64,000 nucleotides of DNA from Serratia sp. FDAARGOS_506 (GTDB taxonomy: Bacteria > Pseudomonadota > Gammaproteobacteria > Enterobacterales > Enterobacteriaceae): assembly GCF_003812745.1 (NCBI RefSeq), contig NZ_CP033831.1, forward strand, positions 2,790,001 to 2,854,000, in the 5' to 3' direction. Both the position numbers and the translations under genes were made by a program. The notes below the pieces were generated by a model. That model searched no databases, had not been told where the DNA came from, and saw only the letters and a list, made by a program, of their open reading frames with translations. Shown here in pieces: positions 10,661-63,380 of this stretch. The stretch's first letter is position 1; each line of letters opens with the position of its first letter.

Positions 10661-10881
10661 AATGCCGCTCGTCTTGGGTGAATGCACAGGCCGCGCTCAG
10701 GGCACGGCGTGACCGAAATCACAATCTACGGCAGGTCGAAGCCGTGAATAAATCCGTTTGCGGTGGTTACACTGTTTCTGAGGGGAAACAATTGCCGGCG
10801 GCGAGTGAAAACGCGGCTTGCGCCGCGCCGAAGGGAAAGGAATAAAACGGCATAAGGTTATGATGGAATGCCGTGTGGTGT

Positions 10882-21912: not shown

Positions 21913-22170
21913 TTAATTGTAGATGATCGCGGTACCGTGCAGTTTGTTGTCGCCGGTGGTGGCGATGATCTGGAAGGATTTGGCGCCGGCTGCATCGGCT
22001 TTGGCCGCCAGTTTGTTTTCCAGGCTGCTCAGGTCGGAAGCACCGCTGACGGTGACGACGCCGGCTTTTTGCAGATCGGCCGGTTGAGCGTTGACCAGTT
22101 CGGCGGCAAAGCTGCCGAAGGAGACAGAGGCAAGTGCGATAGCAGCGATGGTCATTTTCAGGTTTTTCAT
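21913..22170 (-). CDS. DUF1471 (BhsA/McbA/YdgH-type) periplasmic protein, copy 1
   Basis: 85 residues. Signal peptide (MKNLKMTIAAIALASVSFGSFAA) and one DUF1471 domain (VVTVSGASDLSSLENKLAAKADAAGAKSFQII...LHGTAIIYN). E. coli relatives affect biofilm and stress tolerance; the exact role here is unknown. It is a close paralogue of the gene at 22364, and the two signal peptides are nearly the same, pointing to tandem duplication. The upstream region carries a TCGTTAA/TTAACGA palindrome shared with the second copy and the TetR gene. Confidence 0.9.
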   Translation of the reverse strand: MKNLKMTIAAIALASVSFGSFAAELVNAQPADLQKAGVVTVSGASDLSSLENKLAAKADAAGAKSFQIIATTGDNKLHGTAIIYN

Positions 22171-22363: not shown

Positions 22364-22621
22364 TTATTGATAGATTTCTGCGGTGCCATGCAGTTGGTTG
22401 TTACCGCCGGCGCCGATGATGCGGAAGGATTTTGCTCCTGCTTGATCGGCTTTAGTAGCCAGGCTGCTTTCCAGCGAGGTCAGATCGGATGCGCCGCTGA
22501 CGGTGATGACGCCGACTTTCTGTTGGTCAGCCGGTTGGCTCCGAACTAAATCGGCCGCGAAGCTGCCGAAGGAAACACTGGCCAGAGTGAGAGCTGCTAA
22601 GGTTAATTTTAAGTTTTTCAT
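22364..22621 (-). CDS. DUF1471 (BhsA/McbA/YdgH-type) periplasmic protein, copy 2
   Basis: 85 residues with the same plan as copy 1: signal peptide with ASVSFGSFAA, then VGVITVSGASDLTSLESSLATKADQAGAKSFRII. It is about two-thirds identical to copy 1 by eye. It is transcribed away from the TetR-family gene, with 176 bp between the two starts; that region holds the shared operator-like motif. No clear terminator follows. Confidence 0.9.
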   Translation of the reverse strand: MKNLKLTLAALTLASVSFGSFAADLVRSQPADQQKVGVITVSGASDLTSLESSLATKADQAGAKSFRIIGAGGNNQLHGTAEIYQ

Positions 22622-23442: not shown

Positions 23443-23464
23443 CAACCGGCCCGGCTTTTACCGC

Positions 23465-24164
23465 AATGCTGATCAGTTAGCGTTTTTCTGCAGGCGTTCG
23501 TGACATTTTCGGTCGATAAAAGTGAGATGCCCCATGTGGCTCCTGCACCTCGACCGAGCCAGGGGCCGAAGGCGCGGCCCCTGGCAACCCGCGCCTTTGC
23601 CCTATCAGACGGTTGGCTTTGCCAACTTTACTCAGCCCATCCCTGGGCCTCGCCCCTTCGGGGCCGCTGCAAGCAGCGTTCAAATCTGCTCCAGGCAGAT
23701 TTGTCCTATCTCCGCCATAGCGCATTGAGGCCGGTTGCGACAGGCGTCCCTGCCTGTCTCACCTGAAACCGCCGTCCATGGCGGTTTCTCCTAATGCGCT
23801 ATGCCTGCGTTCGGCGTCTTCAAGGGCGCCCAACACCGCGCTCATCTCCAACTTCTCTACCAGAACCTCATAAGCGACAGATTTCCCGGTAGCAGCCAGC
23901 TCAGGTGTTGACCTTTGGCGCGCATCACCGGCTGCCGAGCAAGGCGGCGTTGTCAGGGGCAACCGGCCAGGGAAGGCCGGTTGAGGCGAGACTAACAGGG
24001 ACGTTTGTCGCAGCCGACCCGCCCGACAACGCAGACGCGGCGAGGGTATCCGCGTAGCGGACAGACGGTGTTAAGCGAAGGCGCGGGTGGAGGGGCCGCG
24101 CCATCGGCCCCTCCAATTGCCGTTCATATTGGCCACAGAGAAATGCGGACATTTACGGCAATTC
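23465..24164. repeat. 700-bp structured repeat element, full copy
   Basis: Fills most of the 812-bp gap between the TetR gene and metQ-like gene. Its left 104 bp (23465-23568) and right about 46 bp (24119-24164) recur, joined directly, at 63034-63178. Perfect stems inside: 23559-23567/23576-23584, 23612-23617/23621-23626, 23681-23689/23695-23703, a closing stem 23716-23726/23793-23803 around hairpins 23739-23758 and 23765-23788, 23960-23968/23975-23983 within 23947-23954/24025-24032, and 24089-24097/24106-24114. An 11-bp pair, 23587-23597/24078-24088, closes the whole core. It may act as RNA or as folded DNA. No transposase and no clear target duplication are visible. Confidence 0.75.
23759..23962 (-). 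CDS. Doubtful small protein inside the structured repeat
   Basis: A 67-codon minus-strand frame. Its second half (SVAYEVLVEKLEMSAVLGA and on to a TAMDGGFR end) reads like an amphipathic helical peptide, and I have a faint memory of similar small proteins in enteric satellite-type elements. Against it: the frame overlaps the paired stems at 23716-23803 and 23765-23788, its first part is low-complexity, and no clear ribosome site is seen. Confidence 0.25.
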   Translation of the reverse strand: MPLTTPPCSAAGDARQRSTPELAATGKSVAYEVLVEKLEMSAVLGALEDAERRHSALGETAMDGGFR

Positions 24165-24191
24165 CCCTGCACAGAACGCCCAGAGGCTGGA

Positions 24192-24227
24192 TAAAAAAAT
24201 GCCACTCAGGCTTAAGTGAGCGGCATT
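24192..24227 (-). terminator. Rho-independent terminator of the metNIQ-like operon
   Basis: Read on the minus strand: AATGCCGCTCA, loop, TGAGTGGCATT, then TTTTTTAT. It lies 28 bp past the stop at 24255. A related but weaker hairpin follows the short repeat copy (63212-63241), so it may have travelled with that element. Confidence 0.8.
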
Positions 24228-24254
24228 GCGGCTTTTACCGGGCCGTTTAACCCA

Positions 24255-63001: not shown

Positions 63002-63380
63002 TGGGATATCACGGACGGGCCCCCGGCGCGGTTAATGCTTGTCAGTTAGCGTTTTTATGAAGTACTCGTGTTGTTTTCGGTCGATAAATGAGAGGTGCAT
63101 CATGAGACTCCTGCACCTCGACCGAGCCAGGGGCCGTTCATGTTGGCCACAGAGAAATGCGGATATTTACGGCAATTCAGACTACACGAAACACAAAAAG
63201 ATGGGATAAAAAATGCCAGTCAGGTTTAACTGACTGATATTACCGCCTCCGCGGCCCGTTTTTTCGCTTTTACGCGTACGCAACCCGCTGAATTTTCACT
63301 TAGCTTTGCCATTTTCGTTATTTTGAACGCCGCTACGGCTCACGGATACTGGGAGAAAATCTCTCACCGCGAGCCGCAGC
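63002..63380. other. 379-bp gap holding the short structured repeat
   Basis: Holds the repeat at 63034-63178, an AATGCCAGTCA/TGACTGATATT hairpin with A-run at 63206-63241, and the promoter region of the desaturase gene. Nothing else recognised. Confidence 0.6.
63034..63178. repeat. 145-bp deleted copy of the structured repeat
   Basis: Matches both ends of the 700-bp copy at 23465-24164 but lacks the 550-bp core. The join is at GGGGCCG/TTCAT; the long copy has GCCG at both core borders. It keeps TCGGTCGA (63077-63084) with TCGACCGA (63118-63125) and a perfect inner pair GAGGTGCA (63092-63099)/TGCACCTC (63112-63119). Homology goes on to the hairpin with A-run past 63206. Confidence 0.75.

Follow-up and report, generated by a model that had tools for sequence, protein, structure and literature searches.

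A probable non-autonomous IS4-type transposon of Serratia in terminator stem-loops, with a losable core and a four-hairpin cassette shared with ERIC repeats and tRNA/tmRNA trailers

Escherichia coli IS4 prefers AAA-N20-TTT sites, an attenuator among them. Target duplications in the IS4 subgroup are about one helix turn long, and some of its elements display a "spectacular apparent insertion specificity" in the target arms, according to the part of PMC2266710 consulted, in which the word "terminator" does not occur. The YPAL/RU-2 repeat of Yersinia, as described in the consulted part of PMC2229807, resembles the element reported here as a palindromic repeat whose duplications coincide with or adjoin dyad symmetry, but differs in its length of 168 bp, its duplications of 3-26 bp and its internal inverted repeats. 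The portion of a MITE review that was covered (PMC10969869) names neither IS4 nor Serratia nor CsrA. A shallow literature search yielded no account of terminator targeting by IS4-type MITEs and no description of this Serratia element.

ERIC repeats with an internal insertion of about 70 bp were reportedly described by Wilson and Sharp in 2006 and by De Gregorio in 2005. A GGA in a hairpin loop is the signature of CsrA, and the same shallow search returned no report of CsrA together with ERIC. In the parts of the sources consulted, the TwoAYGGAY RNA family is proposed to bind CsrA (PMC4333381), and small RNAs located between rRNA-operon terminators interact with CsrA and Hfq in pull-downs (PMC8144298); the latter RNAs set a precedent for stable-RNA trailers.

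The window, a 64,000-nucleotide stretch of the Serratia sp. FDAARGOS_506 genome (contig NZ_CP033831.1), contains a 765-bp element whose ends are 16-bp inverted repeats and which is flanked by a target duplication of 12 bp (Table 1). A sequence-only reading had placed its bounds at 23465-24164 (700 bp); these are corrected to 23464-24228, and the short copy is assigned to 63033-63242. Without its cassette the element measures about 690 bp; an outer hairpin stands on either side of a core, in which two diverged inverted arms surround a variable centre. The core is pseudo-palindromic, its left arm (23561-23787) and right arm (23961-24112) being diverged inverted copies. The 765 bp hold no long ORF. 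Relic coding sequence, already discounted by the sequence-only reading, was considered and rejected because none of the five ORFs tested has a Pfam match and length differences among copies in the centre break the frame.

Table 1. Coordinates of the element, its parts and its short copy in the window.
Feature	Position	Strand	Details
Target duplication, left copy	23452..23463		CGGCTTTTACCG; terminator loop and inner stem between a tetR-type gene and a metQ-like gene
IS4-type element without transposase, entire	23464..24228	+	765 bp; ends, duplications, empty sites
Left terminal inverted repeat	23464..23479	+	CAATGCTGATCAGTTA
Outer left hairpin	23509..23557	+	TCGGTCGA/TCGACCGA
Left junction hairpin	23558..23585	+	GCCAGGGGCCG/CGGCCCCTGGC; 11-bp, one edge of the deletable core
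RNA-like cassette (RttR/AaHKsRNA22-like)	23628..23705	-	78 bp, four hairpins, GGA in loops 1 and 4
Left-arm hairpin B	23739..23758	-	Minus-strand loop AGGGAC
Left-arm hairpin A	23765..23788	-	Minus-strand loop AUGGAC; with hairpin B, a sub-threshold TwoAYGGAY match
Right-arm hairpin A	23960..23983	+	Plus-strand loop AGGGAA
Right-arm hairpin B	23990..24009	+	Plus-strand loop AGGGAC; one T-T mismatch in the stem
Right junction hairpin	24088..24115	+	TGGAGGGGCCG/CGGCCCCTCCA; 11-bp, other core edge
Outer right hairpin	24116..24164	+	AATTGCCGT/ACGGCAATT
Right end	24199..24228	-	Terminal inverted repeat inside a terminator-like hairpin, then a T-run on the minus strand
Target duplication, right copy	24229..24240		Same 12-bp repeat, CGGCTTTTACCG
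Short copy, core deleted at the GCCG repeat	63033..63242	+	210 bp; same site long in G010, G011 and G029

The genome to which the window belongs (4.86 Mb) has the element at 14 places, seven long, six short and one partial, where one long place corresponds to two matches (L007, L009) and each short place likewise to two. Both ends were found at 11 of the 14 (L007, L008 and L016 gave no end pair in the end/duplication test); eight of these 11 are flanked by an 11-12-bp duplication with at most one mismatch, and a clean duplication is absent from the other three. Among 60 regions fetched from Serratia, 45 have both ends and 15 lack an end pair; a duplication of 10-13 bp accompanies 24 of the 45 paired copies, the remaining 21 having no clean one. 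Query matches occur in all 30 genomes of a genus scan, but the element itself (E < 1e-100) in only 14, and best matches in the remaining 16 are short and, among the matches listed, mostly cassette. Long elements in other Serratia are about 82-85% identical. The core without the cassette was found in none of 294 other order-level genomes, so that among 295 it is present in this genome only. Among phage, plasmid and E. coli records, none reaches 80% coverage of the whole-element query; in those listed (all 6 phage records, 20 of the 170 plasmid records and 20 of the 633 from E. coli), the matches are to the cassette.

The ends place the element close to the IS4 family. Its right end recurs across Enterobacterales, with matches in 65 of 295 genomes; outside the genome under study these are pieces of 25-42 bases, all but one of them of that end. 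Autonomous insertion sequences bearing these ends on both sides were recovered from other Enterobacterales as 26 rows from 59 loci, two elements being counted twice (L213/L216 and L214/L215). Twenty-five are 1.36-1.43 kb long and one is 986 bp, 23 of the 26 have a 9-13-bp duplication, and the flanks look terminator-like by eye. The transposase of one of them (L109) has Nterm_IS4 and DDE_Tnp_1 domains and is assigned to the IS4 family with 251.5 bits, above the cut-off of 115; with this single IS4-family protein as query, no match was found in the genome under study, and 5 of the 30 genus genomes match. The element resembles the IS4 subgroup in ends such as TAATGCCGATCAGTTAAG, in duplications of 9-13 bp and in the terminator-like flanks of autonomous copies, but it lacks a transposase gene, shows no interior similarity to IS4 and carries structured modules. 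What is found for an IS4-family MITE is found here as well, namely matching inverted ends, a duplication close to one helix turn in length, dependence on a transposase encoded elsewhere in so far as it encodes none, and empty and filled orthologous sites.

The target of the element is the hairpin of an intrinsic terminator. Thirty of 31 resolved insertion sites, drawn from 71 loci, lie in a scored hairpin with a T-tract, as do 3 of 186 control positions taken at a distance of 60-100 bp. The 31 sites are distinct by a 30-base key and include orthologues (L001/L169/L170 are one site, and L138/L152 share a terminator). The sole exception, L006, has a low score yet is a terminator by eye. Duplications at these sites are 11 bp (11 sites), 12 bp (17 sites) or 13 bp (3 sites), and the better hairpin is on one strand in 16 sites and on the other in 15. 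A comparison of orthologous sites with and without the element, suggested by the sequence-only reading, bears this out, as seven relatives keep the same terminator uninterrupted. These seven belong to 25 genus loci, the window's own included, of which five are filled and 13 are element-free with another hairpin. The filled loci are long in the window, L248 and L257 and short in L249 and L252, and in L248 and L257 the element is in the opposite orientation. The family offers a clear example of transposons for which intrinsic terminators serve as landing pads.

The sequence-only reading had left the choice between a big structured RNA and a hairpin-based mobile DNA. Inverted ends, target duplications, natural empty sites and autonomous relatives support hairpin-rich mobile DNA, and a single big RNA is not supported. 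We regard it as very probable that the element is a Serratia non-autonomous IS4-type transposon (broadly speaking, a MITE) that sits in terminator stem-loops and has a losable core and a separate four-hairpin cassette, shared with ERIC repeats and tRNA/tmRNA trailers. An IS4-family transposase supplied in trans would move it, and slippage between short repeats would remove the core. Insertion would be nearly harmless, given the landing in a terminator and the terminator-like hairpin brought along in the right end. Read-through RNA entering from either side would carry putative GGA-loop hairpins in its 3' half, which may act as sites for a CsrA-type protein.

The cassette is the part of the element with strong evidence for an RNA-like fold. 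By a string test on 37 long copies it is present in the left arm only in 14, the right arm only in 5, both in 3 and neither in 15, and the right-arm cassette is inverted relative to the left. The cassette alignment was restricted to matches that begin by query base 9 and extend at least to base 74; a limit of under 93% identity then left 31 of the 55 cassettes. In these 31, 18 of 25 base pairs have changed on both sides, and the two-sided cells number 78 against 18.0 ± 3.5 when shuffled and 6-12 when slid. For a second, model-fitted set (75 matches at 40 loci) the corresponding figures are 22 of 25 pairs and, in cells, 370 vs 112.7 shuffled. The compensatory changes that the sequence-only reading proposed to test are strong in the cassette on both sets. 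The preference for G.U over A.C, which would reveal the transcribed strand, is absent from the similarity-aligned set (23 vs 18), and the 33 vs 9 in the model-fitted set comes from a fit that leans to G.U by construction. Against a covariance model (R1) that includes a near-identical relative of it, the window cassette reaches 103 bits, with the match on the minus strand. The window also has a weak R1 match at 10785-10845 on the plus strand (14.4 bits, E 0.047). At L291 and L299 the cassette starts at or just after an ATG, and by eye an ORF could begin inside it.

Far beyond Serratia, R1 matches occur in 161 of 369 class-level gammaproteobacterial genomes (127 of 272 genera) and, at E 1e-6, in 71 of 299 phylum-level genomes; these searches applied tighter filters, with no more than 12 or 15 candidates scored per genome. 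A plain-pattern scan that was blind to tRNAs found at least 127 distinct cassettes. By simple string rules, GTTC before the cassette among them, the 127 listed fall into 30 in ERIC, 20 at a tRNA 3' end, 7 YPAL-like and 70 other contexts. Measured by distance, 20 of the 127 listed follow a tRNA on the same strand at 49-90 nt and the other 107 lie elsewhere; none is within 130 nt behind an opposite-strand tRNA. The tRNA-linked cassette splits a repeated tRNA 3' end in the order GGTTC, cassette, ATCC..CCA. In E. coli, Salmonella, Serratia and Yersinia the cassette stands alone within ERIC repeats, a setting akin to that of the ERIC internal insertion; in the Serratia element it occupies the IS4-type core instead. 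Several individual loci may also be recorded. L231 has tandem cassettes at 1501-1578 and 1669-1746, downstream of a series of Val-Val-Val-Lys tRNAs; a repeated tRNA 3' end comes after each of the two, an arrangement like that of E. coli tyrT. At L286, L288 and L225 the cassette is about 80-84 nt downstream of tmRNA genes, with the GGA strand in the tmRNA direction. By eye, the cassette at L309, L328, L353, L375, L388, L401, L410 and L423 is followed by a second hairpin, for instance TACATGGATGTA or CCCAGGGATGGG plus TTTACGGCG; the second hairpins at these eight loci resemble the Yersinia YPAL sequence (PMC2759123) and may belong to a wider set of GGA-loop repeats.

Two Rfam families resemble the cassette. 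E. coli RttR (Rfam RtT, RF00391; the tyrV/tyrT repeats) has the same arrangement of GGTTCGA, module and GAGTAATCC plus tRNA 3' end, and R1 scores three K-12 copies at 26.2, 25.5 and 23.9 bits with filters off. The aligned K-12 copies differ in lacking the GGA of hairpins 1 and 4, and RttR looks like a decayed relative of the cassette. The Rfam RtT model gives no match in the window up to E 5, and a tRNA-linked relative reaches 33.8 against a gathering score of 45. AaHKsRNA22 (RF02902), whose Rfam name comes from Aggregatibacter, has the same order of four hairpins and the linkers ACAAA..UUUGAACG..CGGCCCC..GGGGCGAG, but the cassette scores 36.9 bits, under the 39.8 gathering score. An Rfam scan of 40 cassette-bearing loci passed the gathering score for the cassette in none. 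One covariance model thus links the ERIC insertion, AaHKsRNA22, RttR and the core cassette, which have hitherto been filed apart.

What might the hairpins do? In the 31 cassettes a GGA is found in loop 4 of 28 and loop 1 of 25, compared with 0 and 2 for the other two loops; among the 75 model matches the figures are 72 and 67 vs 3 and 7. The search itself accounts for part of this retention, as the queries that found the copies contain GGA. The arm hairpins of the core come from copies found regardless of their loops, and GGA is present there in 36, 36, 36 and 35 of 36 copies, which are closely related; the left arm has it on the minus strand, the right arm on the plus strand. These arms resemble TwoAYGGAY RNA (RF01731) in their tandem hairpins with A(U/G)GGA loops, but at 34.1 bits (left) and 29.2 bits (right) both are under the 43-bit gathering score. 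The pattern suggests that the GGA hairpin loops are putative CsrA sites. The cassette co-occurs with CsrA, being present in 65 of 180 genomes that have CsrA vs 6 of 119 that do not, a comparison confounded by shared ancestry.

An alternative that we take seriously, while thinking it somewhat improbable, is that core and cassette are selfish DNA only, with hairpins that aid cruciform or hairpin-based recombination and GGA loops that mean nothing. Such a view accommodates the cassette's presence in unrelated hosts (ERIC, the IS4-type core and tRNA 3'-end repeats), the lack of G.U bias on the similarity-aligned set and the coincidence of deletion end points with hairpin junctions. It is at odds with the keeping of GGA in loops 4 and 1 while the stems change by compensation, with its near absence from the other two loops in both sets, and with the tRNA-linked cassettes, all 20 of which carry the GGA strand in the tRNA direction. 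More speculatively, an RNA family widespread in gammaproteobacteria (78 nt long, with four hairpins, two GGA loops and RttR as a decayed member) might be a decoy for a CsrA-type protein, made in tRNA/tmRNA trailers and mobile via ERIC and terminator-seeking IS4-type elements, the inverted arms showing GGA hairpins in either direction of transcription. We put this forward tentatively and think it rather unlikely. If GGA loops do bind CsrA, mobile repeats would spread regulatory decoys through genomes.

The long element could also be imagined as a single functional gene, incidentally mobile, for a non-coding RNA of 500-700 nt, which we consider very unlikely. The local hairpins and nested long-range pairs described by the sequence-only reading are indeed where it put them, with the long closing pair at 23587-23600/24075-24088, the enclosing pair at 23947-23957/24022-24032 and, in the window copy, a three-way junction closed by the stem 23716-23727/23793-23803. 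The predicted fold is also highly stable relative to 20 shuffles per strand (z -9.4 plus, -7.8 minus), conservation in 20-base bins across 36 copies is lowest in spacers (0.81) and reaches 1.00 at hairpins A and B, and two-sided changes occur at alignment pair 97-120 (C-G to A-T, 10 of 36 copies) and at the inter-arm pair 199-472 (G-C to A-T, 11 of 36). Against a single RNA, the RNAalifold covariation term for the long copies (L162 was omitted from the 37 before folding) is unfavourable on both strands, and compensatory change is strong in the cassette only; in the rest of the element hairpins are conserved but little varied. The three-way-junction stem, examined in the raw flanks of 33 of 36 copies (three were not parsed), is not well supported: some copies keep it whole, and in others it is broken, as where CATACCGCATT stands opposite AATGCGCTATG. 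Moreover, the arm hairpins lie on opposite strands, internal deletion derivatives persist and the core was not found in the 294 other order-level genomes.

A transposon with a losable core, the reading preferred here, agrees with the short copies. Long and short copies in the window both retain the outer stem TCGGTCGA/TCGACCGA, as had been noticed from the sequence. At the 63-kb site the window copy is short, with ends meeting at GCCG as the sequence-only reading had it, and the orthologues in three relatives are long; this copy is therefore a deletion derivative. The 23.4-kb site is the reverse, long in the window and short (235 bp) in G010 and G011, which have the same duplication and are joined within the AGGGGCCG..CGGCCCCT hairpin. 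Loss of the core as a unit, one half of an earlier suggestion, is thus seen at two orthologous sites, and its gain was not. Likewise very unlikely is a short ancestral form with the core as a cassette inserted into its hairpin, for while the short form has a single hairpin that flanks the core in inverted orientation, the relatives are long at the 63-kb site where the window copy bears a deletion scar, other Serratia hold diverged long elements and no target duplication is seen around the core. Core-less copies end in two near-palindromic junction hairpins or at GCCG/GCCG, and further derivatives of 185-500 bp are present; the core was presumably lost by slippage between short repeats. Two neighbouring 85-aa proteins, similar to each other and with signal-peptide-like starts, are encoded on the minus strand at 21913-22170 and 22364-22621, beside the tetR-type gene.
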